From an uncultured Lutibacter sp. (lineage in GTDB: Bacteria; Bacteroidota; Bacteroidia; Flavobacteriales; Flavobacteriaceae), in NCBI RefSeq assembly GCF_947495725.1, contig NZ_CANLZZ010000006.1, forward strand, positions 62,001 to 126,000: a stretch of DNA of 64,000 nucleotides, in the 5' to 3' direction. Positions 11,467-50,987 of the stretch are shown piece by piece (position 1 is the stretch's first letter; each line of letters begins with the position of its first letter). The position numbers and the translations under genes are program-made. A model generated the notes under the pieces. That model was not told where the DNA came from. It was given only the letters and a program-made list of their open reading frames with translations, and did no database searches.

Positions 11467-11474
11467 TATATTTG
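11467..11474 (+). promoter_or_regulatory. Probable -7 promoter element (TATATTTG)
   Basis: A TAnnTTTG match 37 bases before the GH3 ATG at 11511. It overlaps the upstream in-frame TTG at 11472, which argues that translation starts at 11511. No TTTG at -33 spacing is seen; this would fit a promoter needing an activator. Confidence 0.4.
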
Positions 11475-11510
11475 ATAGGATTTAATGAAACCAAAATTTT
11501 AATTTATTAT

Positions 11511-13871
11511 ATGAGAATTCTATCACTTTTGTTAATCAACTTATTTCTTTTTTCTTGCTCAACAAAACAAGAACAACCAATTCAACTAGTTTCAGATTTT
11601 TCAACTTCAGAAATTGATTCCAAAGTGGAAGCTATAATGAGTAAAATGACGTTAGACGAAAAGCTAGCCCAAATTCAAGGTATTCGTCCAAAGGAAATAA
11701 TGGAAGATGGAAAAATTTCATTAGAAAAATGTAGAGAGAAAATTCCATATGGAATTGGTCATTTTTCACAATTTTCATCGGGTTTAACTATGGAACCTGA
11801 AGAATTACGTGATTTTGTACGATCTGTTCAAAATTATTTAATGACTGAAACTAACTCTAAAATTCCTGCAATTTTTCACGAGGAAGCTATAACGGGTTTT
11901 GCAACACAAGGAGCAACAACTTTTCCTCAACAATTAGGAATGGGATGCTCGTGGAATGAAGAATTAATTTCGAAAAACACAAATTCTACCAGACTTAATA
12001 TGCGCGCTGCAGGAGCAACTTATGCACTTTCTCCAATGTTAGATATTAGTAGAACTGCGCATTGGGAGCGTATTGAAGAAAGTTATGGTGAAGATGCTTA
12101 TTTAACTTCAGCATTAGGTTTAGCTTTTGTAAAAGGTTTACAAGGAAAAGATTTAAGAAGCGGTGTTGCTTGTACAACAAAACACTTTGCAGGTTATGGT
12201 TCTCAAAATAACAATGCTAAAGAATTATACGAAGAATATTTAATGCCGCACGAAGTAGCAATTAAATTAGGAGGTGTAAAAAGTGTAATGCCTTCTTACG
12301 GAAAATACAAAGGAAAAGCAGTTGTTGCAAATAAAGAAATGCTAACAACTATGTTACGAGATATTGTTGGATTTAATGGTGTAGTTGTTAGTGATTACAG
12401 CTCAATAAACTTACTTGTAGGTGGACATAAAGAGGCTAAAAATCAAACAGAAGCTGGCGCAATGGCTTTAAATGCAGGAACTGATATTGAACTTTCAGAA
12501 GGAAGATGTTTTCCAAAATTACCACAAGCTATAGAACAAGGATTAATTACTATAGAAAAAATTGACGATGCTGTAAGACGTTCATTAATTATGAAAGCAA
12601 GACTTGGTTTGTTAGATGAAAACCCACAAATTGGTGTTGATGGCGATTTAGATTTTGATCCACCTATAAACAGAGAATTGGCCTACGAATCTGCTTGTCA
12701 GTCTATAGTTTTGTTAAAGAATAATGGAATTTTACCATTAAAAAAAGATATAAAAAAAGTAGCTTTAGTTGGTCCAAATGCAGCAAGTGTTTATGGTATG
12801 TTAGGAGATTATACGTATCAATCTATGATTTCATTTTGGTGGAGTACACCTTTTGATGCTAACAATCCTAAATTGGTTCCATTAAGCGAAGGTTTAGCAG
12901 CTAAATTAGGAGAAAATGTTACTATTCAACACGAAAGAGGTTGCGATTGGAGCGCACCGTTAGAGTCTGTAATACAAGCTGAATTAGGTGATGATAGGTT
13001 GAGTAAATTAAAAATGATGAGCATTAAGGGTGTTCCTCAACCAGATTTAGAAAATGCGTTGAAAATTTCCAAAGAGAGTGATGTTATTATCGCTGCTGTT
13101 GGCGAAAATATTTATTTAGTTGGCGAAGGTAGAAAGCGTAAAGGAATCAGACTTCCGGGAGAGCAAGAAGCTTTTGTTGAAAAACTAATAGCAACGGGTA
13201 AACCTGTAGTTTTGGTTATTATGGGAGGAAGACAACAATTGGTAAGTAAGTTTGAAGATAAATGCGCTGCAATTGTACAAGCTTGGTTTCCAGGAGAAGA
13301 AGGTGGAAATGCAATTGCTGATATTTTAGTAGGTAATGTAAACCCAACAGCTAAATTATGTGTTACATATCCTAAAACTGAAGATAAACAAGAAATTAAT
13401 TACAAAAATGGTTATGCTGAAGATAATCAACCTCAATATCCGTTTGGTTTTGGATTATCGTACACAAATTACGAGTATAGCGATTTAAAAATGGAAACTT
13501 CAGCAAACGTTGAAGATGAAAGAATTCCATTTACATTTAAAGTGAAAAATGTTGGTGAATTTGATGGAACTGAAATTGTTCAGTTATATGTTTCTCCAAA
13601 AAGTGAAACTTCAACCTTAAATAAAATTCAATTAGAAGGATTTAAAAGAGTGGAATTAAAAGCAGGAGAAGAAAAAACCGTAACATTTAAAGTTTCTCCA
13701 CAGCAATTTACTCAATATATAAATGACGAATGGATTATTGAACCTGAAAAATTTGAATTTTTAATAGGAGCTTCTTCAACAGATATAAGATTAAAAAGCG
13801 ACTTGAATTTACAAGGGACAAGAAAAGTATTAAAAAACGGTAGATCCATATTTTTCTCTGAAAATAATTAA
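11511..13871 (+). CDS. GH3 exo-beta-glycosidase lipoprotein
   Basis: Second family GH3 enzyme. I chose ATG 11511 because it gives a lipoprotein signal (MRILSLLLINLFLFSC, C16); the longer reading from TTG 11472 adds 13 residues without signal character and overlaps the likely promoter. The three-domain layout is complete: barrel (about 35-375), alpha/beta sandwich (about 395-655) and fibronectin III-like end. The nucleophile is D295 in VVVSDYSS, and KHFAGYG is intact. It resembles beta-glucosidase/xylosidase GH3s more than the GH3 at 3398-5635, so the two probably have different specificities. It heads the operon running to 22733; the GH29 gene starts 3 bases after its stop. Confidence 0.92.
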   Translation: MRILSLLLINLFLFSCSTKQEQPIQLVSDFSTSEIDSKVEAIMSKMTLDEKLAQIQGIRPKEIMEDGKISLEKCREKIPYGIGHFSQFSSGLTMEPEELRDFVRSVQNYLMTETNSKIPAIFHEEAITGFATQGATTFPQQLGMGCSWNEELISKNTNSTRLNMRAAGATYALSPMLDISRTAHWERIEESYGEDAYLTSALGLAFVKGLQGKDLRSGVACTTKHFAGYGSQNNNAKELYEEYLMPHEVAIKLGGVKSVMPSYGKYKGKAVVANKEMLTTMLRDIVGFNGVVVSDYSSINLLVGGHKEAKNQTEAGAMALNAGTDIELSEGRCFPKLPQAIEQGLITIEKIDDAVRRSLIMKARLGLLDENPQIGVDGDLDFDPPINRELAYESACQSIVLLKNNGILPLKKDIKKVALVGPNAASVYGMLGDYTYQSMISFWWSTPFDANNPKLVPLSEGLAAKLGENVTIQHERGCDWSAPLESVIQAELGDDRLSKLKMMSIKGVPQPDLENALKISKESDVIIAAVGENIYLVGEGRKRKGIRLPGEQEAFVEKLIATGKPVVLVIMGGRQQLVSKFEDKCAAIVQAWFPGEEGGNAIADILVGNVNPTAKLCVTYPKTEDKQEINYKNGYAEDNQPQYPFGFGLSYTNYEYSDLKMETSANVEDERIPFTFKVKNVGEFDGTEIVQLYVSPKSETSTLNKIQLEGFKRVELKAGEEKTVTFKVSPQQFTQYINDEWIIEPEKFEFLIGASSTDIRLKSDLNLQGTRKVLKNGRSIFFSENN

Positions 13872-13874: not shown

Positions 13875-15323
13875 ATGTATTTAAATAAGTTGAAATTTAG
13901 TTCAATAATTGGCTTTGTGGTTATACTTCTTTTTAGTAATATTCAATGTTCAACTAAGGTTGAAGAGAAACTGAATAGTATAGAAATTGCTAAAAGAGAA
14001 TTTATAAATAAACGTTTTGGAATGTTTATTTGCTATAATATAATGTCTTATGGAGCAAAATGGGGTGAAGCTAACTATCCAATAGAATCATTTAATCCTC
14101 AAAAATTAGATTGTAATCAATGGGCTGATGCAGCGATTTCTGCAGGAATGAAATTTGGATTGTTAACAACAAAACATCACGAAGGTTTTTGTTTGTGGGA
14201 TAGTAAGTTTACAGACTATGATGTTGCTTCTACACCTTATAAAAAGGATATTGTTGAACAATATGCTAATGCATTTAGAAAAAAAGGTTTAGGAGTTGGA
14301 TTGTATTATTCTATTTGGGATAGTACTGAAGGAATAGACAAAGGAAGTGTAACTCCAGAAAAGCTGAAATTTATAAAAGGTCAAATAACAGAATTATTGA
14401 GTAATTATGGTAAAGTTGATTATTTTGTGATGGATGGTTGGTTTTGGAGAATGGGACATAAAGAGGTTCCATATAATGAAATAAGATCACTAATTCGTAA
14501 ATTACAACCAGATTGTTTAATTACGGATCATACGCATATGCAAGCTCCATATCATATGGATATTCCTTATTTTGAAGGTCCATTCGGGGCATATCCGTCA
14601 ACAGATAACACAATGGCCTCGGCTTTAGGACATTGTAGTGTAAAAGGAAATGGTTGGTTTTGGGATGAAAAAACTCCAAATGGACTAAAAGGAGATGATG
14701 GTGTAGATGTAGTAGTTAAAAAACTAACAGAATGTGAAGATCGTTATTGTACTTTTATGTTGAACTGTATGCCTAACCGTGATGGTTTAATGGATCCTAT
14801 TTTTATTGATATGCTTTCAGAAATAGGTGAAAAATGGAAACCAAACACAAACAGGCCGGAGCTTCCAAATCAAGGGAAACAAATTATTACAACTTATCTT
14901 GTTAAGGAAATCAAGGCTTCAAGTGGTAATTCAGAATACCTTATTGATGGAACTAAAATTGCTGGGAAGAATTATTATACTTGGTATTCTGATGAGAGTT
15001 TTCCTCAAAATATAATTTTGGATCTAGGAGAAGTAAAAGAAAATGTAGATGTATTAACAATTGTTCCTCATCATCGCTGTAAACCGGCTCCAGAAACATC
15101 ATTATCAGAAGGGAACATTACAAAATGTAAGGTTTATGTGAGTGCTGATAATAAAACCTTTTCTGAAGTAGGTGAATACACTTGGCAAGCTAATAATAAA
15201 TATAGAAACATATCTTTCGAAAAAAGTAAAGCTCGTTATATTAAACTAGAAATTTTAGAAGCAAACGGTCCAAATACAATAATAACGGAACTTGAAGTAG
15301 GAACATCAGAAAGTATTTTTTAG
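13875..15323 (+). CDS. GH29 alpha-L-fucosidase-like with C-terminal carbohydrate-binding domain
   Basis: Glycoside hydrolase family 29, a retaining exo-enzyme for alpha-L-fucose or related L-sugars such as L-galactose. An N-terminal hydrophobic signal (about 1-24) ends in SNIQC, possibly a lipoprotein site at C25. The barrel (about 35-345) carries [11 protein letters not shown] and the likely nucleophile D187 in VMDGW. Residues about 355-480 form a galactose-binding-like (F5/8 type C) beta-sandwich with the discoidin-type phrase ARYIKLEI. The spacing of 3 bases to the upstream GH3 gene indicates co-translation. It diverges from the other three GH29 proteins here and is probably a different subfamily. 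Confidence 0.87.
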
Positions 15324-15412: not shown

Positions 15413-18400
15413 ATGAATTTAAAATCAATATACTTCCATTTTAAATATCTGTTTATCAGCTGTATAATTCTGATTTCAAATGTGATATATGCTCAAAGTT
15501 TTGAGCGTATAGAAACAATAGCAGGATTTGGTGTTTTGGAAGAAAATAATGGAGTTGCAGTAGCTGATTATGATGGAGATTTAGATTTAGACGTTTTTGT
15601 TGTTGCCAAAGGAAAAGAAAAAATAGGCCTAGAAAAATCCTACAGTAAACTTTTTAGAAATAATAACAACGGTTCCTTTACCGATGTAACTGTTGAAGCC
15701 GGACTAGTGGATTTATTTATTGGAGATGAAGATGTTATAGAGAGTAATGGCGTTGATGGTTTTAAAATGAATGTTTCGTGGGGCGATTTTAACAATGATG
15801 GTTTTCCGGATATTTTCTTTACGTATGTTAATAAAATTCAACTTTTTCAAAATCTAGGTGATGGAACTTTTACCGAAGTTACTGAGGCTGTTGGAATTAA
15901 TTCAGAAAATGGTTGTTTCAATACAGGAGCTACTTGGGTAGATTATAATAATGATAGTTTTTTAGATGTTTTTATTTGTAATTGGGGTAATTGCAATGGA
16001 AACATACTTTATAAAAATAATGGGAACGGAACTTTTCAAAACGTATCAGAAATTATTTCTTTAGCGGATACAACAATTGCCAGTTTTGCAATGTTGCCTT
16101 TTGATGTTAATAATGATGGCTGGTTGGATTTATATGTTACCAATGATTTTACAAAACCCAATAGTCTCTTTATCAATCAAAATGGTAGTGGATTTATAGA
16201 GCAGGCTGCAGATTTTGGGCTTGATAGTAAAATGGATGATATGGGAATTTCAAGGAGTGACTTTGATAATGACGGTGATTTCGATTTATTTATAACTGGA
16301 ATTAGTGAGAATGCTATATTAGAAAATGACGGTTCCAATCAGTTTTTTGAAAATTCTAGTCAATATGCTATAACTGAAACTGGTTGGGGTTGGGGTAGTA
16401 AATTTGCTGATTTTGATTTAGATGGTGATGAAGACTTGTTTGTTGTAAATGGTTTCAAATTGGGTTTGCCAGAACAAAATGCATATTTTAAAAATTTATT
16501 AATTGAAGGTGAAAACAGATTTTTAAACAATACAGATCATCTTGGTTTTAGTGAAATGACTAGAAGTGTTGAGCCGCTAGATTTTGATTATGATAACGAC
16601 GGTGATTTAGATCTTTTTGTTTCAAATGCCGATCAGAATTCTTTTTTTTATGAAAACAAAATCATTAACTCTAATGAAATTAGCGAATTTAATTGGGTTA
16701 AGATTTCATTACAAGGAACTGTTTCCAATCGAGATGCAATTGGAGCTACAGTTTCTATTACTACCAACAAAGGGGTTTTTACAAAATATTATTCAGGAGT
16801 AGGCTATTTATCTCAAAGTTTAAAGCCTGTTCATTTTGGTTTAAATTCAGCATCTATAATTGATGAATTAAAAATAATTTGGCCTTCGGGTTTAATAGAA
16901 AAACACAATAATATTGATGCAAATGTAACTATAAAAGCAATTGAGGGTAACGGAATTGAAATTTTAAACATGGAGCCAAGTGTGAAAATAAAAGGTTGCA
17001 TAGATCCAAATTCATGTAATTACAATCCGTTAGCAACTTTTAGTGATAATAGCTGCCAATACCTTCCTTCAAAAAATATTATTGGGCCAACTATTTCAGG
17101 TTTCAATAAAGTTGATAGTTATTCATATCCGTTAAATGAAAATGCCTCAGCCATTTGGACAGTTGAAGGTGGCCATATTGTTAACGGACAAGGAACCTCA
17201 ACTATTAAAGTAAAATGGGGAGTAAATGAATTAGGAACAATTAAAGTTTTAGAAAAAGATTCAAAATGTCAAAGTGAAGTTACCTCCATTGATGTGGCGT
17301 TAAGAGTTAGTGAAATACCTGAAAATGTATCTATAGCCAGAATTTGGAACGAAGCACTTTTAGAAGCCATTAGAAAAGATTTTGCAAGACCAACGGTTCA
17401 CGCAAGAAATCTATTTCATACATCGGTTGTATTATATGATAGTTGGGCTATTTACGATTCAAAAGCTAAACCTTATTTAATGGGTAATACAGTGAATAAT
17501 TTTGAAAGTACTTTGAACGAATTTACTCCAAATGAAAATATTGATGAAGCAAGAAAAAAAACAATGAGCTTTGCCGCTTATAGACTGTTAGTACACCGAT
17601 TTAAAGATTCTCCTGGAGCTGAACAAAGTTTGGCGAGGTTTGAGTTAATTATGAATCAATTGGATTATAACACTTCTGATACATCAGTTAATTATGAATC
17701 TGGCAATGCAGCAGCTTTAGGGAATTATATTGCTGAAACAATGATTAATTACGGAGCTCTCGATGGTTCTAATGAAGCCAATGACTATCAAAATACATTT
17801 TATGAAACTGTAAATCCTCCAATAAATTTAAGTTTAAGAAATGAAGAAACTGGGCTTGAAAATCCAAACCGTTGGCAGCCTTTAAGTTTTAATACTTTTA
17901 TAGATCAAAGTGGAAATTTAATTCCAGGTGCAACACCAAGTTTTTTAAGTCCAGAATGGGGTAAAGTACTTCCTTTTGCATTATCTGAAAATGATAAGAA
18001 TATTTTTAATAGAGATGGAAACGCTTTTGAAGTTTATCATAATCCCGAATCACCACCGCAATTAAATCTAAATTCAGCAAATAATTCAAGTGACTTATAT
18101 AAATGGAATTTTTCTTTGGTTGGAATTTGGAGTTCGCATTTAGATCCAAGTGATGGTGTAATTTGGGATATTTCGCCAAAAACAATTGGTAATATTGATA
18201 TAAATTTGATTCCAAAATCATATTCTAATTATGCAAGTTTTTATAATGAATTTGAAGGAGGAGATATTAGCAAAGGGCATAATTTAAACCCTTCAACCCA
18301 AAAAGCATATAAAGAACAACTTGTTCCAAGAGCGGATTATGCAAGGGTTTTAGCCGAATTTTGGGCAGATGGACCAGATTCTGAAACACCACCGGGACAT

Positions 18401-19441
18401 TGGTTCACCATTTTAAATTATGTGAGTGATCACGACTCCTTTGAAAGAAAATTTAACGGAAAAGGAGATATGCTTTCTCCTTTAGAGTGGGATGTTAAAA
18501 GTTATTTTATACTTTCTGGAGCAATGCACGATGCTGCTGTTACAGCTTGGGGAATAAAAGGTTGGCACGATTATTTGAGACCAATTTCGGCAATACGCTA
18601 TATGTGTGAATTGGGGCAAAGCTCTAATCCTTCTCTAGATAATTACCATGTAGCAGGAATTCCTTTAGTTGATGGTTTTGTAGAAATAATTGAAAATGGT
18701 GATGACTTGAGTGGAACAAATAATGAAAATGTAGGGAGAATAAAAGTATATGCTTGGAAAGGACATGATTTTATTAACGATTCAAATACCGATGTGGCTG
18801 GAGTTGGTTGGATTTTAGGTCAAAATTGGTGGCCTTATCAGCGTCCTTCATTTGTAACACCGCCTTTTGCAGGATTTGTTTCTGGACATTCTACTTTCTC
18901 TAGAGCGGCGGCAGAAGTTATGACATTAATTACTGGAGATGAATTTTTTCCAGGCGGAATGGGTGAGTTTGTAGCTAAGAAAAATGATTTTTTGGTTTTT
19001 GAAAAAGGACCCTCAGTAGATGTGAAACTTCAATGGGCTACTTATAGAGACGCATCTGATCAATCAAGTTTGTCACGTATTTGGGGAGGTATTCACCCTC
19101 CCGTAGATGATTTACCAGGTAGATTGATAGGTGAAAAGATAGGTATTGACGCCTATAATTTTGCAATACCTTATTTTAATTCAATCGACAATATTACAGA
19201 ATTAAGTGAAATTGTTGTTTATCCAAACCCTTCGGTGGAGGGAACAGTTTATGTTTCCAATACAACAGCATTAGATAATTTCAGTTTGTATGATTTAAAT
19301 GGAAAAATATTGAGTTTCTCCGAAATTAGTTTTAACGAAATAATAGGAGTAACTAAATTATCTCTTCCAAATTATATAACTGCAGGTATTTATATTTTAA
19401 AAGTAACCGATAAGTCTAAATTGATATTTGTTAAAAAATAA
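15413..19441 (+). CDS. FG-GAP/UnbV protein fused to a vanadium haloperoxidase-like (PAP2) domain, T9SS-secreted
   Basis: A 1342-residue secreted multidomain protein. After the signal peptide (about 1-28) come FG-GAP/VCBS repeats with calcium-loop motifs such as DYDGDLDLDVF and DFNNDGFPDIF (about 40-430), then an ASPIC/UnbV domain (about 440-515). A short Cys-containing segment starts at C529, followed by an Ig/PKD-like part (about 550-645). Residues about 650-1255 form a vanadium-haloperoxidase/PAP2 domain with all three vanadate-binding motifs: K1049-x6-R1056-P1057, S1157-G-H1159, and S1221-R1222-x5-H1228-x3-D1232. A type IX sorting domain closes the protein (from about 1265, YPNPS to the VKK end). 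Such active sites serve haloperoxidases or acid phosphatases, and the sequence does not separate these. It lies inside the GH3-GH29-sulfatase operon. Confidence 0.88.
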   Translation: MNLKSIYFHFKYLFISCIILISNVIYAQSFERIETIAGFGVLEENNGVAVADYDGDLDLDVFVVAKGKEKIGLEKSYSKLFRNNNNGSFTDVTVEAGLVDLFIGDEDVIESNGVDGFKMNVSWGDFNNDGFPDIFFTYVNKIQLFQNLGDGTFTEVTEAVGINSENGCFNTGATWVDYNNDSFLDVFICNWGNCNGNILYKNNGNGTFQNVSEIISLADTTIASFAMLPFDVNNDGWLDLYVTNDFTKPNSLFINQNGSGFIEQAADFGLDSKMDDMGISRSDFDNDGDFDLFITGISENAILENDGSNQFFENSSQYAITETGWGWGSKFADFDLDGDEDLFVVNGFKLGLPEQNAYFKNLLIEGENRFLNNTDHLGFSEMTRSVEPLDFDYDNDGDLDLFVSNADQNSFFYENKIINSNEISEFNWVKISLQGTVSNRDAIGATVSITTNKGVFTKYYSGVGYLSQSLKPVHFGLNSASIIDELKIIWPSGLIEKHNNIDANVTIKAIEGNGIEILNMEPSVKIKGCIDPNSCNYNPLATFSDNSCQYLPSKNIIGPTISGFNKVDSYSYPLNENASAIWTVEGGHIVNGQGTSTIKVKWGVNELGTIKVLEKDSKCQSEVTSIDVALRVSEIPENVSIARIWNEALLEAIRKDFARPTVHARNLFHTSVVLYDSWAIYDSKAKPYLMGNTVNNFESTLNEFTPNENIDEARKKTMSFAAYRLLVHRFKDSPGAEQSLARFELIMNQLDYNTSDTSVNYESGNAAALGNYIAETMINYGALDGSNEANDYQNTFYETVNPPINLSLRNEETGLENPNRWQPLSFNTFIDQSGNLIPGATPSFLSPEWGKVLPFALSENDKNIFNRDGNAFEVYHNPESPPQLNLNSANNSSDLYKWNFSLVGIWSSHLDPSDGVIWDISPKTIGNIDINLIPKSYSNYASFYNEFEGGDISKGHNLNPSTQKAYKEQLVPRADYARVLAEFWADGPDSETPPGHWFTILNYVSDHDSFERKFNGKGDMLSPLEWDVKSYFILSGAMHDAAVTAWGIKGWHDYLRPISAIRYMCELGQSSNPSLDNYHVAGIPLVDGFVEIIENGDDLSGTNNENVGRIKVYAWKGHDFINDSNTDVAGVGWILGQNWWPYQRPSFVTPPFAGFVSGHSTFSRAAAEVMTLITGDEFFPGGMGEFVAKKNDFLVFEKGPSVDVKLQWATYRDASDQSSLSRIWGGIHPPVDDLPGRLIGEKIGIDAYNFAIPYFNSIDNITELSEIVVYPNPSVEGTVYVSNTTALDNFSLYDLNGKILSFSEISFNEIIGVTKLSLPNYITAGIYILKVTDKSKLIFVKK

Positions 19442-19477: not shown

Positions 19478-21067
19478 ATGAATTACGTAAACAAATTTTT
19501 AAAAGTTAGTGTTTTCTTTATAGCAACTGTTTTGTTTGCTCAAAAAAAACAACCAAATATTATTTACATAATGTCCGATGATCACGCGGCACAGGCAATT
19601 GGTGCATATGGTGGCGATTTATCAAGTTTAAACCCAACGCCAAATATTGATAAGTTGGCTTCGGAAGGAATGCTATTTAAAAATGCCTTTTGTAATAATT
19701 CAATTTGTACACCAAGTAGGGCAAGTATTATCAGTGGACAATATCCCCAAACCAATGGAGTACTTGATTTAGATATGGATTTAGAGACCGAAAAGCAGTA
19801 TTTACCAATTGAAATGAAAAAATTAGGGTATACAACTGCTATGATTGGGAAATGGCATTTAAAGAATGAACCGGTGAATTTCGATTATTATAAGGTGCTT
19901 CCAAGCCAAGGAAAGTATTTTAACCCAAGTTTTAGAGAAAAAGGGAAAGGAACCTGGCCAAAGAATATTGTAAAAACAACTGGACATTCATCAGATGTTA
20001 TTACCGATTTGGCTATTAATTATTTAGAAAATTTAGATAAATCTAAACCTTTCTTTTTAATGCATCATTACAAAGCGCCGCATGATATGTTTGAATATGC
20101 ACCACGTTATGAAGATTATTTAAAAAACACCGAGATACCGGAGCCGGCAAGTTTATACAATCAACCATATTGGGGGTCAGCAGGTACAAAAGGCGAAAAC
20201 GATAGGTTAATTAATTATATAGGAACTTCAGTTTCACCAAGACATAGAAATCCTTTAAAAGCATCAGATTATACAACACGCTTTTTTGGGGAAGAAATCG
20301 AGCCAAAATTAGGAACTCATTTAGCATATCAAAAGTATTTAAAAGATTATTTACGTTGCGTAAAAGGTGTTGATGATAATTTAGGTCGTTTATTTGAATA
20401 CTTGAAGAAAGAAGGGCTTTGGAAAAATACAGTTATTATTTACACAGGTGACCAAGGAATGATGTTAGGAGCACACGATTTAATTGATAAACGTTGGATG
20501 TACGAAGAAGCTATGCAAATGCCTTTTATTGTGCATTACCCTAAAATGATTAAAGAAGGAAAAACTACAGATTTGTTAATAAACAATACAGATTATGCGC
20601 CAACTATGATTGAGCTTGCAGGAGGTAAAACACCTGAATATATGCAAGGGAAAAGTTTTTTAAATACCTTAAAAGGGAAAAGTGAAAATAACTGGAGAAC
20701 AGCAACTTATTACCGTTATTGGATGCATATGATTCATCACGCAGTTCCTGCTCACTTTGGTGTTAGAACTAAAGATTATAAATTAATTTTTTACTACGGT
20801 TCGCATTATTTAACTGAAAAAGATTTTAAAAATCAGTATTGGATAAAAAATAAACTAGGTCATGATGTTCAAACTCCTGCAACTTGGGAATTTTATGATT
20901 TAAGAAATGATCCAAAAGAATTACATAACAGATACAACGATCCTGCTTTTAAAGAAATTATTGAAGAGTTGAAAAAAGAGTTGAAAAGACAACGAGAGGA
21001 ATTAAATGAAACAGACAATAAGTATCCTCATATTCAAAAAATTGTTAATAAACATTGGAATGATTAA
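19478..21067 (+). CDS. Sulfatase, family S1 (CTPSR type), N-acetylglucosamine-6-sulfatase-like
   Basis: Secreted sulfatase with signal peptide (about 1-22, ending FAQ). MSDDH provides the first metal motif, C77 in C-T-P-S-R the predicted formylglycine, and GKWHL is intact. The second metal loop is GDQGMMLGAHD. The overall pattern (FCNNSICTPSR, WMYEEAMQMPF, TNGV after the active site) matches the glucosamine-6-sulfatase-like/mucin-desulfating-like part of S1. Members of this branch in marine bacteria act on algal galactans and fucans, so the name need not give the substrate. It is followed after 10 bases by the GH43-like gene. Confidence 0.92.
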   Translation: MNYVNKFLKVSVFFIATVLFAQKKQPNIIYIMSDDHAAQAIGAYGGDLSSLNPTPNIDKLASEGMLFKNAFCNNSICTPSRASIISGQYPQTNGVLDLDMDLETEKQYLPIEMKKLGYTTAMIGKWHLKNEPVNFDYYKVLPSQGKYFNPSFREKGKGTWPKNIVKTTGHSSDVITDLAINYLENLDKSKPFFLMHHYKAPHDMFEYAPRYEDYLKNTEIPEPASLYNQPYWGSAGTKGENDRLINYIGTSVSPRHRNPLKASDYTTRFFGEEIEPKLGTHLAYQKYLKDYLRCVKGVDDNLGRLFEYLKKEGLWKNTVIIYTGDQGMMLGAHDLIDKRWMYEEAMQMPFIVHYPKMIKEGKTTDLLINNTDYAPTMIELAGGKTPEYMQGKSFLNTLKGKSENNWRTATYYRYWMHMIHHAVPAHFGVRTKDYKLIFYYGSHYLTEKDFKNQYWIKNKLGHDVQTPATWEFYDLRNDPKELHNRYNDPAFKEIIEELKKELKRQREELNETDNKYPHIQKIVNKHWND

Positions 21068-21077
21068 ATCCTTTAAA

Positions 21078-22733
21078 ATGAATTCACTTAAAAGATTATT
21101 TATTGTTGCATTTTTGTTAGTGTTTACTATTAATTATGCTCAGGATATTGAAAGAACAAGACCTAAAGAATGGAATGGTTTAGTTGAAGGAAGTAGATTT
21201 ATAGATCGTTTTTTACCAATACCTATAATTGGAAAAAAAGTTTCAGATACTTGGGGTGCTAAAGAAGTAATTCCTCGTTATGCCGATAATGGAATTGAAG
21301 ATAAAGAATGGTCTTATTGGGGCGGAAATATTGTTCAAGGTGATGATGGAAAGTACCATCAATTTATATGTCGTTGGCGAGAAGATTCGGAAAAAGGTCA
21401 TATGGAATGGCCAAGGTCTGAGGTTATTCATGCAATTTCAGATAATTTAATTGGTCCTTTTAAATATGTTGAAACTATTGGTAAAGGGCATAATCCTGAA
21501 ATTTATAAATTAAAAAATAATGGGTATTTAATTTCTGTAAATGGTGGGTGCTATATTTCCGAAAGTTTAAATGGCCCATGGAAATATGATAAGTTTGAAT
21601 TTGATCAACGAGAAAAGCCAATTTTAGATCATTTTACCAATAATACTTTTGCTCAACGTGAAGATGGCTCATATTTAATGGTGAGTCGTGGAGGTGAAGT
21701 TTTTTTTAGTGAAACCGGGTTGCCACCATTTTATATGGTAACAAGTGAAAGCAATTATCCTCCTTACGATGGAAGATATGAAGATCCAGTAATTTGGAGA
21801 ACTAATGTTCAATATCATATGATTGTGAATGATTGGTTGGGTAGAATTGCTTATCATCAACGTTCAAAAGATGGTATTCATTGGAAATTAGATGCTGGTG
21901 AGGCTTATATGCCAGGAATTGCAAAATACCAAGATAAAACGCTTGAAGGTTGGTATAAGTTTGAGCGTATGAAAGTATTTCAAGATAAATACGGTCGTGC
22001 AATACAAGCTAATTTTGCGGTGGCCGACACCATAAAAAAGCAAGATAAAGGAAGCGATAATCATAGTTCTAAAAATATTGGAATTCCATTAACTGTTGGT
22101 AAGCTTATTATGGTGTTAAACACTAAAAAGCTTGATGCTAATACTAAAACAATTCGTTTGAAAATTCAAGCAGAAGAAGGGTTTAATCCACATAAGGATA
22201 TAAACATAAAGTCATTACGTTTTGGAGCTTCTGAAGTTGTTAATTTTGGAGGAGGTTGTAAAGTTCTTAAAAAGGAAAAAGCCGGTGATGATTTAATTTT
22301 AACCTTTGAAGGAAAAGGTAATGGTTTTACAGAAGATAATTTTGCCGGTAAATTATTAGGTAAAACAAGAAAAGGAAAGTTGTTATTTGGCTTTGCACGA
22401 TTACCTGAAGTTAATTATTTAGAGCGAGCATTGTCAAGTAAATACCCAGTTTTAGAATTAAATGGCCGCCATTTAAAAGTTAGCCTTGAAATTCAGAATT
22501 TTGGTCAAGTTTCATCTATAGATTCACCAGTTAAAATTGAATTTAAAAAGGAAGGGAAATGGATTGAGCTTGCTAAAGGCGAAGCTCCAACTTTAAAACC
22601 TTTCGAAAAAACAATTATTCAAATGCACGCTAAAAAGTTTGCTGAAATTGGAGAAGTTGCAAATATGCGAGTAACAATTAATCAAAGTAGACAAAATCCT
22701 TTAATTTTGGAGGGGAAGGTTATAATTAGATAA
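21078..22733 (+). CDS. Predicted five-bladed beta-propeller glycosidase (GH43/GH117-like)
   Basis: I chose ATG 21078 because it begins a clean signal peptide (MNSLKRLFIVAFLL, cleavage near NYAQ) 10 bases after the upstream stop. An in-frame ATG at 21006 lies inside the preceding gene, and ATG 21060 is possible. Residues about 60-330 show repeated propeller-like phrases such as WSYWGGNIVQGDDGKYH, NLIGPFKYV, NGPWKYDKF and YEDPVIWR, the style of GH43/GH117/GH130 enzymes. A DGRYEDPVI segment could hold one catalytic carboxylate. Residues about 345-551 form beta-sandwich domains. I cannot assign it to a defined family with confidence. Its operon partners imply action on a sulfated oligosaccharide after desulfation. 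Confidence 0.6.
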   Translation: MNSLKRLFIVAFLLVFTINYAQDIERTRPKEWNGLVEGSRFIDRFLPIPIIGKKVSDTWGAKEVIPRYADNGIEDKEWSYWGGNIVQGDDGKYHQFICRWREDSEKGHMEWPRSEVIHAISDNLIGPFKYVETIGKGHNPEIYKLKNNGYLISVNGGCYISESLNGPWKYDKFEFDQREKPILDHFTNNTFAQREDGSYLMVSRGGEVFFSETGLPPFYMVTSESNYPPYDGRYEDPVIWRTNVQYHMIVNDWLGRIAYHQRSKDGIHWKLDAGEAYMPGIAKYQDKTLEGWYKFERMKVFQDKYGRAIQANFAVADTIKKQDKGSDNHSSKNIGIPLTVGKLIMVLNTKKLDANTKTIRLKIQAEEGFNPHKDINIKSLRFGASEVVNFGGGCKVLKKEKAGDDLILTFEGKGNGFTEDNFAGKLLGKTRKGKLLFGFARLPEVNYLERALSSKYPVLELNGRHLKVSLEIQNFGQVSSIDSPVKIEFKKEGKWIELAKGEAPTLKPFEKTIIQMHAKKFAEIGEVANMRVTINQSRQNPLILEGKVIIR

Positions 22734-22753: not shown

Positions 22754-22787
22754 AAAAAGAGCATCAATTTTTTTGATGCTCTTTTTT
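22754..22787 (+). terminator. Rho-independent terminator
   Basis: GAGCATCAA (22759-22767) pairs with TTGATGCTC (22773-22781), extended by an A-run before and T-run after. It closes the operon that began at 11511 and separates it from the SusC promoter. Confidence 0.9.
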
Positions 22788-22991: not shown

Positions 22992-25900
22992 ATGAAGAAA
23001 TTACAATTAAAATTATTTGGTAAATGCAGTATTGTTTTACTGCTTTTTACAACATTATGTGCACATAGTGTGTACTCGCAAAACATTACTATAAGTGGTG
23101 TTGTGTCTGACACTCAAAATCAACCATTACCAGGTGCTAATGTATTAGTTAAAGGAGCCACAGTTGGAACACAAACAGGATTTGATGGAGATTTTACAAT
23201 TACAGCATCAAAAGATGCTATTTTAATTTTTAGTTTTATAGGTTTTAAACAACAAGAAATTGCGGTAAATGGAAGAACAAAAATAAATGTAACGTTAGAA
23301 GAGGACGCTAGCAAATTGGAGGAAGTAGTTATTGTAGGTTATGGTACTCAGAAAAAATCTGACTTAACAGGTGCCGTTTCTTCTGTGAGTTCTAAAGATT
23401 TGGATAAATTTACATTTAGTGATCCAGCGCAGGCATTGCAAGGTAAAATGTCTGGGGTAAGTGTTCAGGCTCAAGGTGGTGCACCAGGGGCTAATGCAGT
23501 AATATCAATTAGAGGTCTTGGTACTTTATCCGATGCTGGTCCTTTATTTGTAATAGACGGAATGTTAACAGGTAATATGAGTTCAGTTAACCCTGGAGAT
23601 ATTGAGTCCGTTTCTGTATTGAAAGATGCTTCTGCTAGTGCAATTTATGGTTCTAGAGCAGCCAATGGAGTTGTTATAATTACCACTAAAAAGGGTAAAA
23701 AAGGAAGAGTTACGGTAGATATTGATACTAATATTGGAACTCAAAAAGCAATTAACACTTTTAATTGGGCAAATAATAGACAATATGCAGACATTGTAAA
23801 TCAAGCAAATGATAACGATGGGGTTCCAAGAATTCCTGCAAATGATACCGATTTTAATCCAAATAATGGTAGTAATTTATATGATTCCTCGTTGAGAACT
23901 TCATCAATTCAAAATACCAATATTAGAATTGCTGGAGGTGGTGAGTCAACTACCTTTAGTTTATCCTTAAATCAATTTGAAGATGAAGGAATTGTAAAGT
24001 ATTCTGATTTTGAAAGAACTACAATTAGAGCAAATGCAGGTGTTAATAAAGGTAGGTTTGATGTTCAAACCACCATTGGTTTAACAAGAACAGTGAATAA
24101 TCCAAATCCATATTTTAATAAGGAAAGAAATTTGTTGCCAACAATTAATTTGAAGGATGAAAATGGAAACTGGAACATTAATGATGCTCCAAATGGACAA
24201 GGACTAGGTCAATTCTATGGTCAAGGAACAATTTATAATGAGCTTGGAATGGCTGCTTTAGAGGATAGAACTATTACAAGAAATACAGTTTTAGGTAATA
24301 TTGGTGCTACTTTTGAAATTATGGAAGGTCTTAAATATAAATTAAATTTAGGAATGGAATATTATAATGATAATAATTATAAATTTAGACCTACAGACCC
24401 ACTTTTTGATGCAACAGGAGGTAGCGGATTTGCGGAGCTTTCGGAAAGAAATACTACGTACCTTTCAACTTTAGTTGAGCATACTCTTAATTATAAAAAG
24501 GAATTTGATCAGCATTCTGTTGATGTTTTAGCTGGTTTCACAGAGCAAAGCACAAATTCAAGATTTTTAGGAATTGAAGCAAGAAGATTTCCTTCAAATG
24601 AAGTACGTGTAGCTTCGGCTGCAGAAGAACTTGCAAGTGCACCTTCAGCAGATAATACATCGGCAATACAATCTTATTTTGGTAGATTAAATTATACATT
24701 TGATGAAAGGTACTTATTAACAGCAACTTTAAGGCGAGATGGATCATCATTATTTACCGAGGATTTAAGATGGGGAACATTTCCTTCTGTAGCCGTTGGT
24801 TGGAATATAAGTAACGAGCCATTTATGGAAAATTTTGAAGATGTATCTAATATAAAACTGAGAGTTAGTTATGGGGAAATAGGTTCAAATAACGTTCCTG
24901 TTTATGCAACCGATCCTTCGCTTAATTTAAATAGTGAATATATTGTTGGAGACAATAGAGTTACCGGATATTCTATTACAAATGGTGTAAATAGAAATAT
25001 TACTTGGGAAACTACAAAAACAACTGATATTGGGTTGGAATTTAGAACTTTAAATGATAAGTTAAATGTAAGTATGGATTATTTCAATAAGAAATCTGAA
25101 GATGTACTTGTTGGGTTAAGATTGCCATTATATACTGGTTTTGGAAACGACATACCATTTAATACAGCGAGTATTGATAATAATGGATTTGAATTTTTGG
25201 CTAGTTACTCTGATAATATTGGCGATTTGTCATTCAATGCTTCTACAAACTTTACAATAGTAAATAATGAGGTTACATCATTGGGGCAAGCAACTGCAAT
25301 TATTCAAGGATCATTTACGTCAAATACTATTAATAGTACAAAAACAGATGTAGGTCAACCAATATCTTCCTTTTTTGGATGGGTGTTAGATGGAATTTAC
25401 CAATCAGACGCAGAGGCAATTGCAGCTAATGATCAACTAGGTAGTCCACAAGCAGGAGATTTAAAATTTAAAGATATTGATGGAGATGGAGATATAGATA
25501 ATGACGATAGAACTTATATTGGTAATCCTACACCAAATTTTGAGTTTGGTATTAACTTATCTGCAGAGTACAAAAACTTTGATATGAGTTTATTCTTTAA
25601 TGGAGTTTCTGGAAATAAAATTTTAAATGGTACTAAATATAGAGGTATATTTGATTTTAATGGTAATTATTTTGCTGAAAGATTAAATTCTTGGACACCT
25701 ACAAATACAAATACAGACATACCAAGAAATACAAGAACAGATGGAGGATTTAACCGTAGAATGTCTTCTTATTATTTAGAGGATGGAGCCTATTTTAGAT
25801 TGAGAAATGCTCAAGTAGGTTATACACTTCCAAATGAATTATTAGAAAAAATAAAAATTGAGAAAATTAGACTTTATGTGTCTGCAACCAATCTATTTAC

Positions 25901-26042
25901 TATTACAGATTATACTGGGTATTATCCAGAAGTAGGAAGAAACAGTAGAGGTGGTTCAAGAAGAATATTTAATTCAGGTGTAGATGAAGGAGCATATCCT
26001 ACACCTAGAAATTTTCAATTAGGTTTACAAGTTTCATTTTAA
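22992..26042 (+). CDS. SusC-like TonB-dependent outer-membrane transporter
   Basis: TonB-dependent importer of oligosaccharides across the outer membrane, working with the SusD lipoprotein encoded next. A signal peptide (about 1-29, ending YSQ) is followed by the carboxypeptidase-regulatory-like domain (about 32-105; VSDTQNQPLPGANVLVKG). Then come the SusC signature LEEVVIVGYGTQKKSDLTGA and the plug domain (about 120-225; IRGLGTLSDAGPLFVIDG, SAIYGSRAANGVV). The rest is a beta barrel ending in an aromatic (VSF). At 1016 residues it has the standard length. A complete promoter precedes it. SusC/D pairs are specific for one glycan class, but that cannot be read here. Confidence 0.97.
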   Translation: MKKLQLKLFGKCSIVLLLFTTLCAHSVYSQNITISGVVSDTQNQPLPGANVLVKGATVGTQTGFDGDFTITASKDAILIFSFIGFKQQEIAVNGRTKINVTLEEDASKLEEVVIVGYGTQKKSDLTGAVSSVSSKDLDKFTFSDPAQALQGKMSGVSVQAQGGAPGANAVISIRGLGTLSDAGPLFVIDGMLTGNMSSVNPGDIESVSVLKDASASAIYGSRAANGVVIITTKKGKKGRVTVDIDTNIGTQKAINTFNWANNRQYADIVNQANDNDGVPRIPANDTDFNPNNGSNLYDSSLRTSSIQNTNIRIAGGGESTTFSLSLNQFEDEGIVKYSDFERTTIRANAGVNKGRFDVQTTIGLTRTVNNPNPYFNKERNLLPTINLKDENGNWNINDAPNGQGLGQFYGQGTIYNELGMAALEDRTITRNTVLGNIGATFEIMEGLKYKLNLGMEYYNDNNYKFRPTDPLFDATGGSGFAELSERNTTYLSTLVEHTLNYKKEFDQHSVDVLAGFTEQSTNSRFLGIEARRFPSNEVRVASAAEELASAPSADNTSAIQSYFGRLNYTFDERYLLTATLRRDGSSLFTEDLRWGTFPSVAVGWNISNEPFMENFEDVSNIKLRVSYGEIGSNNVPVYATDPSLNLNSEYIVGDNRVTGYSITNGVNRNITWETTKTTDIGLEFRTLNDKLNVSMDYFNKKSEDVLVGLRLPLYTGFGNDIPFNTASIDNNGFEFLASYSDNIGDLSFNASTNFTIVNNEVTSLGQATAIIQGSFTSNTINSTKTDVGQPISSFFGWVLDGIYQSDAEAIAANDQLGSPQAGDLKFKDIDGDGDIDNDDRTYIGNPTPNFEFGINLSAEYKNFDMSLFFNGVSGNKILNGTKYRGIFDFNGNYFAERLNSWTPTNTNTDIPRNTRTDGGFNRRMSSYYLEDGAYFRLRNAQVGYTLPNELLEKIKIEKIRLYVSATNLFTITDYTGYYPEVGRNSRGGSRRIFNSGVDEGAYPTPRNFQLGLQVSF

Positions 26043-26051
26043 AAAATAATA

Positions 26052-27626
26052 ATGTATAATATGAAAAAACATATAAAATCAATAAAAAAGGGTATTGCAT
26101 TATTTGCAATATTAGCCCTGAGTACAAATTGCTCAGAGGATATATTAGATCAAGTCAATCCAAATGTAATTACACCGGCATCATTTTGGAATACAGCAGA
26201 TGATGCCAATAAAGGAATTTATGGAGCATATAGTCCATTTACACATATTTGGTATTACACTAGATTCGAAGTCTTTATTTCAGATTATAGAGATGATGTT
26301 GTGAATGGGTATAACACTTCAGAAAGAACAGCCGTTGGATATTTTAGCGGAACATCTGATAGTAATGCTACATTTTGGTGTTGGCAAGCAATGTATCAAG
26401 GAGTAACAAGAGCAAATGAAGTAATTGCAAATGTTCCCAAAATAGATATGGATACTACTTTAAGAGATAATATTACAGGAGAAGGTTATTTTATTAGAGC
26501 CTTTAACTATTTTAACCTTGTTAATAACTGGCTTAATATACCACTAATTACTACTCCAATAGGAGAGATAGAAAACCCAAGTTTAATAGAACAAGCTAAT
26601 CCTGCCGACGTTTGGGCTCAAATTGAGTCAGATTTAAAAGAAGCACAAAGTTTGTTGCCAACGAGTTGGCCAGACAGTGAAGCTGGTAGAGTTACCTCAG
26701 GTGCTGCTACGGGAATGTTGGGTAAAGTATATCTATATCAAGGAAAATATGCAGAAGCTAAGGCAGAATTTCTAAAAATTATGGATGGTCGTTACCAATT
26801 AATGGATAATTATGCAGCTAATTTTAGTGAAGAGTTTGAAAATAACGCAGAATCTTTATTTGAAATTCAATTAATCGCCGACGGTAACGGTGGTTGGGGA
26901 GGCGATGGGCCGGGAAGAGGAAAAGGTGCTGCTTTTCAACCGGATATTGCGCCAAGAGGATTTACCAATCAAAATGGAATGAGAATTAACAATTGGGTGT
27001 TAGATCTGTATAAAGATGAGCAAACTATAAATAATGAAATGGATCCTAGAGCATATGCTACATTATTTTGGAACGGAACGGAAACAACAAACTATGAAGG
27101 CGAGGTTTTAGAATCTAGAACCTATAAAAATCAAAGCTATACAGATGCAGGTTATCCGTCAACAGCTAATGATGTTTTTGCAAATAAATTTCTTGATTGG
27201 AAATTTAATGGGCACACAGATTCTCAAAATCCTGGAGCTTGGCATGGATCCGGTAATAATCTTAGAATATTAAGATATGCCGATGTACTTTTAATGTTTG
27301 CTGAAGCGGAATTTCAGTTAAATGGATCTACTGTTGCTGCTTTGAAAGCAATTAATGATGTACGTGAAAGAGCCGATATGCCACCACACACCAGTATAAC
27401 TATGCAAGATATAGAAGATGAACGTGTTAAGGAATTAAGCCTTGAGCGTACGCGTTATTTCGATTTATTACGTTGGGGTAAAGTAAAATCTAGAATTGTT
27501 GATAATCCACAATTTAAATCGGAAAGTGCTGGTACAACAGCATATAAACCTGGACGAGAATACATTGCTATTCCACAAAATGAGATTGATTCTAATCCAA
27601 ATTTTGAGCAAAACCCAGGATATTAA
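26052..27626 (+). CDS. SusD/RagB-like glycan-binding lipoprotein
   Basis: Outer-membrane surface lipoprotein that caps the SusC barrel and captures oligosaccharides. The signal ends at C27 (ALSTNC) when counted from ATG 26052; ATG 26061 is an equally good start. The N-terminal SusD-like region covers TPR-like helices (about 75-220; YFIRAFNYFNLVNNW, AATGMLGKVYLYQGKYAEA). The C-terminal RagB part includes RILRYADVLLMFAEA, VRERADMP and the usual ERTRYFDLLRWGK. It starts 9 bases after the SusC stop. Confidence 0.96.
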   Translation: MYNMKKHIKSIKKGIALFAILALSTNCSEDILDQVNPNVITPASFWNTADDANKGIYGAYSPFTHIWYYTRFEVFISDYRDDVVNGYNTSERTAVGYFSGTSDSNATFWCWQAMYQGVTRANEVIANVPKIDMDTTLRDNITGEGYFIRAFNYFNLVNNWLNIPLITTPIGEIENPSLIEQANPADVWAQIESDLKEAQSLLPTSWPDSEAGRVTSGAATGMLGKVYLYQGKYAEAKAEFLKIMDGRYQLMDNYAANFSEEFENNAESLFEIQLIADGNGGWGGDGPGRGKGAAFQPDIAPRGFTNQNGMRINNWVLDLYKDEQTINNEMDPRAYATLFWNGTETTNYEGEVLESRTYKNQSYTDAGYPSTANDVFANKFLDWKFNGHTDSQNPGAWHGSGNNLRILRYADVLLMFAEAEFQLNGSTVAALKAINDVRERADMPPHTSITMQDIEDERVKELSLERTRYFDLLRWGKVKSRIVDNPQFKSESAGTTAYKPGREYIAIPQNEIDSNPNFEQNPGY

Positions 27627-27722: not shown

Positions 27723-30700
27723 ATGCGAAAAAGTCTTTTTTTAATTGTTTTATCTATTTTAATAATAAGTTGTAACCAAGAAAAATCAGCGTTACATAAA
27801 TTAAATTTTAGTGATTTATCGCCCGATGTTTCTGGTGTTAAGTTTTCAAATAATATTATTGAGAATGATACATTAAATTACTTTAGTTTTCCATTTTTAT
27901 ATTTAGGTTCTGGTGTTTCAGTAGGAGATATAAATAACGATGGTTTGCCTGATATTTATTTTACAGGTAACCTTGTTCCAAATAAATTATATCTTAATAA
28001 AGGAAATATGAAATTTGAGGATATTTCTAAATCAGCTGGAGTTTCAGGTGATAATAGATGGTATTCTGGGACTACAATGGCCGATGTTAATAATGATGGG
28101 TATTTAGATATATATGTATCTGTTTCTGGAAAGTTTGGGGCTACAAATAATCAATTATTTATAAATAATGGAGATAATACATTTACTGAAAGGGCAAATG
28201 AATATGGAATTGATGACTCAGGTGTCTCAATTCAATCAACATTTTTCGACTATGATAATGATGGAGATTTAGATTTGTTTGTGGCGAATTATCCAATTGT
28301 AAAAGTTACTGGTGGAAATCAATACTATAAACGTTTAATGGATTTAAATAGGATTGAAGATTCTGGTCATTTATATAAAAATAATGGGAATGGAAGTTTT
28401 ACAGATGTTACGGTTGAAGCTGGAGTTCATAATTTTGGTCTAACATTAGGTTTAGTAGCATCTGATTTTAATAATGATGGGTTTAAAGATTTATACCTTT
28501 CAAACGATTTTAATGTGCCAGATTATTTTTATCAAAATAATGGAGATGGAACATTTTCTGAAATTTCAAAAGAAACTGCACGACACACCTCTATGTTTGG
28601 TATGGGAATAGATGCTTCAGATTTTAATAATGATGGTTTTACCGACATTCTTCAAGTTGATATGACAGCCGAAGATTATAAGCGATCAAAAACAAATATG
28701 GCAAGTATGAGTCCGGCAACTTTTTATGAAGCAATAGATTTAGGGTTTAATTACCAGTATATGCAAAATTCACTTCAATTAAATCAAGGAATTAATGAAA
28801 AAGGACTTCCGATATTTAGTGAAATATCAAGATTTGCAGGATTGGCAACAACCGATTGGAGCTGGGGAGCATTATTTGCCGATTTTGATAATGATGGTTT
28901 TAAAGATGCATTTATAACCAATGGTGTAAAACGCGATGTAAATAACAACGACGTAAATGCAGAATATAAATTAGCAAGTGTTTTTGGAGGAAATAAAAAA
29001 CGAGATTATACCTTAATGCCAAGTACTCCAATTGCTAATTATGCATTTTCTAATAATGGAGATTATACTTTTTCTAACAAAACCAAAGATTGGGGATTAG
29101 ATAAAAAAGGATTTTCAAATGGGTTTGCCTATTCGGATTTAGATAACGATGGCGATTTAGATATAGTAATAAATAATATGGATGATTTCGCTTCCGTTTA
29201 TGTAAATAATTCGAGTAAAAGTAACAATAACTATATTAAAATAAAATTGCTTGGTAAAGAAGAAAATAAATGGGGAATTGGAGCAAAAGTAAGTGTAAAT
29301 ACCTCTAATTCTCAGCAAACACAAGAACTTACTCTAACACGAGGATACCAATCTAGTGTTGATCCAATATTACATTTCGGACTTGGTACAGTTGAAAAAA
29401 TTGAAGAAATTAAAATTAGTTGGCCTAATGGAAATGTTCAGATTTTGAATGATGTTGAGTTAAATCAATTGGTTGAAGTAAAATATAAAAGTAATTCAAT
29501 TGAAGAAAATAAAATTACTAGTAAAAATAAAGAATTTAAAGATATTACAAATGAAGTAGGTTTAAATGTACAGCATATTGAAGATGAATACGACGATTTT
29601 AAATATGAACCTTTACTTCCTCATATTTACTCTAAAATTGGACCAGGATTGACAGTAGGAGACGTTAACAATGATGGTTTAGATGACTTTTTTGTAGGGA
29701 ATGCAGCTGGTACATCTGGACAATTATATATGCAAAATGAAAATTCAGAATTTAATGTTATAAATGGACCTTGGCAGCAAGATGCCCAATTTGAAGATAC
29801 GGGAGCTCTATTTTTTGATGCAGATAATGATTCGGATTTAGACTTGTATGTAGTTAGTGGAGGTAACTCAGTTACAGAAAGTGATAATTTTTATCAGGAT
29901 AGGTTGTATTTAAATACGGGTACTGGATTTATTAAATCGGCCAATGTTTTACCTAATATATTGTCAAGTGGTCAACAAATAATTAAAGGTGATTATGATG
30001 GAGATGGAGATTTAGATTTATTTGTAGGAGGAAGAATAGTTCCGGGCAAGTATCCTTTTCCGGCACAAAGCTTTATATTACAAAATAACGGTAAAAAAGA
30101 TGATCAGCTTAGATTTACCAATGTTACAAGCCAAATTGCCCCAGAATTAAATGAACCTGGATTAGTAACTTCGGCTTTATGGGATGATTTTGACGCTGAC
30201 GGTAAATTAGATTTAATTGTTACTGGTGAGTGGATGCCAATTCGATTTTTTAAAAATACAGGAAATAAGTTTGAAGAAGTAACAAATTTTTTAGGATTAA
30301 AAAACAGTGTTGGTTGGTGGTATGGATTACAAAAAATAGATGTAGATTTAGATGGTGATTTAGATTATTTGGCCGGAAATTTAGGGCTTAACTATAAATA
30401 TCATACAAGTTCTAGTAATTTATTTGAAGTTTATGCAAATGATTTTGATGAAAATGGAAATTCGGATATAGTTTTAAGTTACCAAAAGAAAGGTGTTAAA
30501 TTACCTTTAAGAGGGCGAGAGTGTTCTTCTCAACAAGTTTCAGCAATTAAGCAAAGATTTAAAACATATGAAGCGTTTGCCAATGCAGAATTAGAAGATA
30601 TTTATGGTGAAAGAATGTTAAATGAGTCTTTAAATTATAAATCAAATACATTTGCTCATTTTTGGATAGAAAATGATGAGAATGGAAAAATGAAGATGCA

Positions 30701-47331: not shown

Positions 47332-47427
47332 AAAGAATAAAAATACATAAAAAATGTAATAAATAGATAAATATTCTAAATATAGTAATTATAGTAGTTA
47401 AAAATAACATTAACGTTTGTTTGTTGT

Positions 47428-47435: not shown

Positions 47436-47476
47436 ATAGAAGTCTAAGCTCTTATTATTTTCTAAAAAAATATATA

Positions 47477-50977: not shown

Positions 50978-50987
50978 AAAAATAGTA

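Follow-up and report, generated by a model that had tools for sequence, protein, structure and literature searches.

Bacterial vanadium haloperoxidases (VHPOs) are best known from antibiotic biosynthesis and as the small iodoperoxidases of Zobellia. Their chemistry relies on vanadate, which together with H2O2 turns a halide into a hypohalite (PMC11871015). Here we describe a gene of an uncultured Lutibacter sp. (Flavobacteriaceae) that joins a VHPO domain to an N-terminal propeller of the CRTAC1 type (hereafter CRTAC) and to a type IX secretion system (T9SS) tail. The gene lies in a 64,000-nt stretch of contig NZ_CANLZZ010000006.1 (assembly GCF_947495725.1, positions 62,001 to 126,000), which we refer to as the window. 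We read the fusion as a two-part module, in which a conserved core makes the oxidant and an exchangeable propeller does the targeting, and, with moderate confidence, as a secreted, T9SS-exported, propeller-targeted vanadate haloperoxidase acting at the brown-algal matrix. At the level of titles, abstract starts and term counts, no description of a CRTAC–VHPO pairing was found in the one open-access library searched, and in a 2026 halogenase-mining preprint (PMC12871659) the terms ‘Bacteroidota’, ‘Flavobacter’ and ‘multidomain’ do not occur.

A single gene with a propeller, a predicted VHPO domain and a secretion signal

A preliminary description of the window, drawn from its letters alone, had proposed one gene with a propeller, a VHPO core and a T9SS signal. 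The exact open reading frame (ORF) and the domains found with Pfam and TIGR models bear this out. The gene and its parts are as follows:

15413..19441, + strand: CRTAC–VHPO fusion gene, 1342 aa (ATG start, exact ORF, domain and motif searches)
15413..15493, + strand: signal peptide, residues ~1–27 (judged by eye from the hydrophobic N-terminus of the translation)
15545..16942, + strand: FG-GAP propeller and UnbV/ASPIC, residues ~45–510 (Pfam; fold match to CRTAC1, 9etn)
17129..17278, + strand: PKD-like linker, residues 573–622 (PKD_6, E = 1.9e-4, below cut-off)
17330..19192, + strand: predicted VHPO domain, residues 640–1260 (AlphaFold2 model, Foldseek)
18557..18583, + strand: motif 1, K1049-x6-R1056-P1057 (W1046 three residues N-terminal)
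18881..18889, + strand: motif 2, S1157-G1158-H1159 (F1152 five residues N-terminal to S1157)
19073..19108, + strand: motif 3, S1221-R1222-x5-H1228-x3-D1232
19217..19429, + strand: T9SS C-terminal sorting domain (PF18962; TIGR04183, 38 bits, cut-off 23)

Above the Pfam cut-offs, the ORF matched FG-GAP_3 (four stretches), FG-GAP, UnbV_ASPIC (residues 442–507), DUF6851 (672–823) and Por_Secre_tail (1269–1339); VCPO_2nd and PKD_6 were matched below cut-off only. The N-terminal half is of the CRTAC1/ASPIC-UnbV type, an FG-GAP propeller followed by UnbV. The protein is T9SS cargo, as seen from Por_Secre_tail and from SprA, the sole T9SS component looked for, which is encoded in the same genome. An artefact of two merged genes was ruled out, as the frame is open throughout and 38 other distinct genes have the CRTAC-first order.

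The three vanadate motifs that had been claimed (K1049-x6-RP, S1157-G-H and S1221-R-x5-H-x3-D) are all located at exactly these residues. Their ordered pattern, with spacing limits, occurred in none of 20,000 shuffled versions of the protein. The ten checked motif residues (for motif 3, the four named ones) were the same in all 48 aligned homologues, as were W1046 and F1152, which we take to be the counterparts of W350 and F397 in fungal chloroperoxidase. This alignment (A1) comprised the window protein and 47 of the 80 loci described below; a second one (A2) held 33 sequences.

An AlphaFold2 model of residues 640–1260, built from 48 sequences, reached a pLDDT of 89.7 and a pTM of 0.92. At E ≤ 0.001, Foldseek searches with this model returned 22 PDB chains, every one a VHPO entry or homologue. 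NapH1 was the top match (E = 8.9e-19, TMq 0.57, TMt 0.74, rmsd 5.7), followed by XhnO11, NapH3, the Curvularia enzyme and the iodoperoxidase 4cit/4usz (TMt 0.74–0.75), and algal and cyanobacterial bromoperoxidases ranked last of the 22 chains (TM 0.22–0.37). The K-x6-RP, SGHS and SR-x-GGIH regions align to 4cit in a sequence profile; the model itself was superposed globally only. As modelled, the C-terminal half has the VHPO fold over the whole domain length, and in the comparison with haloperoxidases and PAP2 phosphatases, which the preliminary description had named as a check, the predicted structure was far closer to the VHPOs.

The CRTAC1-like propeller that had been proposed for the N-terminal half was recovered by the Pfam pair and by the nearest fold. 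In a larger model of 1200 residues (45–1244; 33-row alignment, C-terminus trimmed to fit; pLDDT 82.6), the best fold match was murine CRTAC1 (9etn; E = 1.3e-20, TMt 0.68, 516 columns), and below the VHPOs came hybrid two-component system (HTCS) sensor propellers (4a2m), then GlcNAc-binding fungal lectins (4tqm, 2bwm, 5mb4). Such lectins and integrin propellers have been grouped as one supercluster (PMC8023676). The pTM of 0.58 suggests that propeller and enzyme are loosely tethered without rigid docking, although the low value may also stem from the shallow alignment and the cut C-terminus, which weighs against this interpretation.

Recurrence of the CRTAC–VHPO pairing

The pairing recurs in distantly related bacteria, and the window fusion is not unique. 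The VHPO domain was matched in 38 of 198 genomes (own included), with 40 near-whole-domain matches, 23 in open frames of at least 1254 aa and 17 in frames of 638–771 aa; the long open frames with the VHPO domain carry the propeller. Two of the four UnbV proteins in the own genome are VHPO fusions, and its second copy is 65% identical. An even sample of the phylum contained the domain in 22 of 395 genomes (own included). The scan of named genomes yielded 89 relatives, from which 80 loci were kept, and relatives were also present in Gammaproteobacteria, Planctomycetota, Calditrichia and Eisenbacteria. Two loci hold adjacent VHPO genes of this family: L087, from a Saprospiraceae metagenome-assembled genome (MAG), with 967 and 673 aa, and L219, with 1298 and 1065 aa.

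The domain-architecture search for the same fusion, again a check named beforehand, found 38 other CRTAC-first genes after deduplication, along with 4 VHPO-first and 91 unfused genes. The CRTAC-first count includes three weak-scoring FG-GAP fusions (L047, L070 and L218), and UnbV was not found in a Pfam scan of L047. In the VHPO-first genes (L084, L094, L095 and L101), the CRTAC profile is located at the C-terminal end, and two of them show PKD/Big domains, then FG-GAP and UnbV, in Pfam. Judged by title or tree label, three are alteromonad and one is gammaproteobacterial only.

A tree of 98 VHPO domains, which leaves out the partial domains L100, L103, L106 and L108, requires six architecture changes, for which five gains and one loss are one possible reading. 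A single origin for all fused genes was rejected in the approximately unbiased (AU) test (p = 5e-5), in which the rows were a hand-picked 40 of the 98 and the unfused L037 was set among the fused genes as a presumed loss. There was no rejection of one clade of CRTAC-first genes (p = 0.122) or of L131 joined to the main clade (p = 0.347). Two lines indicate that the pairing arose at least twice: the opposite domain orders and the rejection of a shared clade for every fused gene. L037/L208, a close relative (70% in the VHPO domain) without a propeller and nested among fused genes, has probably lost it.

Separate genes for the two halves in close relatives had been named in advance as evidence against the fusion. 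Such genes exist in some relatives, and there they adjoin, which supports a functional pair. Among ORFs of at least 140 aa, a CRTAC gene is the immediate same-strand neighbour of 6 of the 91 unfused VHPO genes, upstream in L221, L224, L227 and L234 and downstream in L231 and L041 (weak score); in L227, a 102-aa ORF lies between the two. Further off in the same loci, CRTACs made up 6 of 1139 ORFs, giving P = 3e-4 for adjacency. Within two genes, a CRTAC was found for 8 of the 91, one on the opposite strand. The order in L192 is SusC-SusD-CRTAC-CRTAC-GH20-VHPO, with GH2, GH109, GH20 and MGH1-like genes opposite. The remaining 83 of 91 have no CRTAC within two genes; the pairing with a CRTAC is thus frequent as a fusion but not obligatory.

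Putative replacement of the propeller

Three fusions (L032, L111 and L034) are 72–74% identical to the window in the VHPO domain, the highest or near-highest values, 46–53% in the linker and 36–38% in the propeller; the other flavobacterial-clade fusions with 62–72% in the VHPO domain reach 48–58% in the propeller. L123 and L129 show the same break (VHPO 61% vs propeller 36%), and L123 and L122, both from one genome, are 66% identical in the VHPO domain and 36% in the propeller. Where propellers diverge, identity in the linker remains within its usual range. In propeller trees, placing either divergent set together with the main set was rejected (p = 4.5e-4 and 8.8e-4); these p values are optimistic, since the groups were named after inspecting identities and tree. 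The replaced propellers are nearest, on long branches, to separate CRTACs close to VHPO genes (L192, support 83; L234, support 99). In the flavobacterial clade, the propeller thus appears to have been replaced at least twice with linker and VHPO kept. A propeller that changes while linker and enzyme persist is the behaviour expected of a targeting module. Stand-alone CRTACs, sampled mostly as the best PF07593 scorers plus five shorter ones, fell mostly outside the VHPO-linked propellers in the trees, and one clade for the VHPO-linked propellers was neither shown nor rejected (p = 0.304).

Genomic context of the fusion

The proposed setting, a polysaccharide utilization locus (PUL) with sulfatases and fucosidases, was confirmed by SusC/SusD at 22992–27626, three GH29 enzymes and 11 sulfatases. 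Around the fusion, the features are:

11472..13871, + strand: GH3 (Pfam)
13875..15323, + strand: GH29-type fucosidase with F5/8 domain, ending 89 bp before the fusion (Pfam)
19478..21067, + strand: sulfatase, starting 36 bp after the fusion (Pfam)
21006..22733, + strand: 575-aa ORF, no Pfam hit at an E limit of 0.1
22754..22786, + strand: hairpin and T-run past the fusion’s probable transcription unit (pattern match only)
22992..26042, + strand: SusC/RagA receptor (profile match)
26052..27626, + strand: SusD (Pfam)
27723..31019, + strand: second CRTAC protein, 1098 aa, eight FG-GAP_3 stretches and UnbV, without VHPO (Pfam)

All listed ORFs of at least 150 aa between 154 and 46739 are on the + strand. 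They include 9 Pfam-confirmed sulfatases, 2 GH3, 3 Pfam-confirmed GH29, a phosphorylase-like protein, SusC/SusD, the second CRTAC, an MFS transporter, two enolase-superfamily enzymes and a GntR regulator; two additional sulfatases at 60640–63645 bring the window total to 11 Pfam-confirmed ones. The fusion is a component of this PUL, in a same-strand cluster with SusC/SusD and carbohydrate-active enzymes. Terminator-like hairpins at 9401 and 22754 flank its probable unit (pattern match; 15 terminator-like sites vs a shuffle mean of 8.3), and promoter-like sites numbered 98, about as many as the mean of 93 expected from shuffles. From the sulfatases and fucosidases we infer that the substrate of the locus is probably a fucose-containing sulfated polysaccharide, and hence of brown-algal source.

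The second CRTAC protein directly follows SusD and clusters in the tree with other stand-alone CRTACs of ~1100 aa. The listed start of the 575-aa ORF overlaps the sulfatase by 62 bp, and the true start may be later. The ORF at 35588–37903 is a sulfatase fused to an SMP-30/gluconolactonase-like domain. Between sulfatase/fucosidase genes and an HTCS-type regulator lies a tyrosine/phenylalanine-degradation-like cluster (47417–54885) with an aminotransferase, homogentisate dioxygenase-like and HPPD-like genes, a biopterin-dependent hydroxylase, a fumarylacetoacetase and a flavin reductase-like gene.

The link to a PUL holds at the window locus and does not hold generally. In the fetched flanks, SusC or SusD turned up at 9 of 38 loci with a CRTAC-first gene, at none of the 4 with a VHPO-first gene and at 3 of the 89 with an unfused one, and thus more often near CRTAC-first than near unfused genes (Fisher p = 9.5e-4); detection used the window’s own proteins and probably undercounts, and flank lengths vary by locus. 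No SusC/D was found within 20 kb of the own genome’s second copy (L112).

Of five gammaproteobacterial CRTAC-first loci, four have a sulfatase-like ORF after the fusion (L085 Pfam-checked). A dedicated sulfatase partner of CRTAC–VHPO was considered, but the sulfatases of L085 and L089, the two compared, are only 25–29% identical to those of the window over long alignments. By mechanical ORF ends, the CRTAC–VHPO stop codon abuts or overlaps the sulfatase-like ORF in L085, L086, L088 and L089. A conserved functional neighbour outside PULs was sought and rejected. One gene present in 8 distinct fused loci resembled SprT and another, in L112 and L121, a sigma factor, both judged by eye from the printed sequences, with most other neighbours left unannotated.

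Proposed function and alternatives

In the function we propose, the C-terminal helical domain would bind vanadate and, with H2O2, convert halide into a hypohalous, bleach-like oxidant. The CRTAC1-type propeller on its PKD-like linker would act as an exchangeable binder that keeps the enzyme attached to a polymer or cell surface. Most likely, the enzyme would act at the surface of the brown-algal matrix, spending algal H2O2 and iodide or bromide, and its oxidant could oxidise or halogenate phenolics or other electron-rich groups by which the polysaccharide is shielded. The binding of vanadate and of glycan, the oxidation of halide, co-transcription and the physiological role are what we infer here. 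Brown-algal walls are rich in iodine and contain phlorotannins. Haloperoxidases of kelp have been described, as has an oxidative cross-linking of phenolics, which form complexes with alginates (PMC8307928); the partners named there are alginates and proteins, not fucans. Zobellia raises the vanadium iodoperoxidase vIPO3 on Ascophyllum (PMC9296495). Algal phenolics and iodine, taken together with this induction, therefore favour an oxidant at the polymer surface.

Several observations weigh against this proposal. SusC/D was not seen in the fetched flank of 29 of the 38 other CRTAC-first loci, and no single glycan fits all SusC/D-bearing loci: L116 has a rhamnogalacturonan lyase, differing from the window locus, L113 has GH97, a pectate-lyase-like and two GH29-like ORFs, and the unfused L192 operon has GH20/GH109. 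With such varied neighbour enzymes and a second copy lacking SusC/D within 20 kb, the module is therefore one that PULs employ but that they do not define. Characterised VHPOs are only 12–16% identical to it (fold alignments, E ≤ 0.001), and the vanadate motifs also occur in phosphatases. The Curvularia chloroperoxidase has been reported with phosphatase activity (PMC4859513), and the title of one fold match, 3bb0, names a dephosphorylation intermediate of apochloroperoxidase. These last points, with the shared motifs, speak for a phosphatase of the same superfamily whose pocket binds phosphate and which dephosphorylates glycans or phospholipids, a function we consider improbable. Phosphatase activity of the VHPO domain is disfavoured, as acid phosphatases (chains of 212–252 aa) aligned to the model at E > 0.5, mostly over 100–135 columns (~110), vs whole-domain matches for VHPOs. 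The spacing of motifs 1 and 2, about 100 residues, is long for PAP2 enzymes (12–54 residues), and the VHPO domain does not conform to their small single-bundle fold with short motif spacing.

Alternatively, the fusion would be a peroxide and halide detoxifier that removes H2O2 of the algal oxidative burst by halide cycling, with the propeller only as an anchor near the cell and no polymer modified. The stress reactions of Zobellia on fresh macroalgae, with vIPO3 raised on Ascophyllum (PMC9296495), and the 29 loci lacking visible SusC/D fit this role, but repeated propeller replacement is easier to explain if the target matters. In addition, catalase removes H2O2 without halide, and overall we regard detoxification as unlikely. 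Quite unlikely, in our view, is a surface oxidant weapon or signal quencher, whose hypohalous acid would harm competitors or destroy their signals. Relatives do occur in gammaproteobacterial MAGs, whose isolate codes we take to be sponge metagenome codes, and most identified VHPOs are described as releasing short-lived reactive hypohalites (PMC11871015). Against this, the fusion sits with a fucosidase, a sulfatase and SusC/D, and the L192 operon has GH20.

Beyond the propeller-targeted haloperoxidase proposed for the window, CRTAC–VHPO might be a general two-component oxidative module for the breakdown of shielded extracellular polymers, with a conserved vanadate oxidant generator and a swappable glycan-recognising propeller that were repeatedly brought together, fused in either order or encoded by neighbouring genes. 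We offer this generalisation tentatively and with considerable doubt; if true, it would be the halogen counterpart of carbohydrate-module-guided oxidative enzymes. An exported, propeller-tied VHPO class, sometimes in glycan-degradation loci, would link halogen chemistry to the turnover of marine polysaccharides and provide VHPOs with a principle of targeting, and the propeller swaps and separate-gene pairs make the targeting idea directly testable via domain exchange.

Comparison with known systems

NapH1 (3w35/3w36), NapH3 (8cxl) and XhnO11 (9l8x) are alike in VHPO fold (TMt 0.72–0.74, TMq 0.55–0.57), and their K-x6-RP and SR-x5-H regions align with the window domain. They differ in their 14–16% identity and chains of 478–531 aa, compared with a domain of ~620 aa in a 1342-aa protein, and XhnO11 has SGS in place of the SGH of the window family. 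The entries 4cit/4usz, the Zobellia galactanivorans iodoperoxidase, reach TMt 0.74–0.75, with PPFxxxxSGHS and SRxxGGIH aligned to the window domain; the 458-aa chain of 4cit is too short for a propeller, and its phmmer match covers residues 1142–1231 only (E = 6e-4). The Curvularia inaequalis chloroperoxidase (1vnc) has the same fold (E = 7.5e-13) and differs by 13% identity and a 576-aa chain.

For the N-terminal half, the lectins PVL, PAL and the Agrocybe lectin (2bwm, 5mb4, 4tqm) share the propeller fold (TMt 0.47–0.51). PVL is described as having a Ca-binding loop motif in common with integrins (PMC8023676). These lectins are 400-aa proteins without VHPO, and the comparison with the window propeller is at the level of fold. 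Murine CRTAC1 (9etn) and UnbV/ASPIC proteins share both the Pfam pair and the fold with the N-terminal half; CRTAC1 itself is without VHPO.

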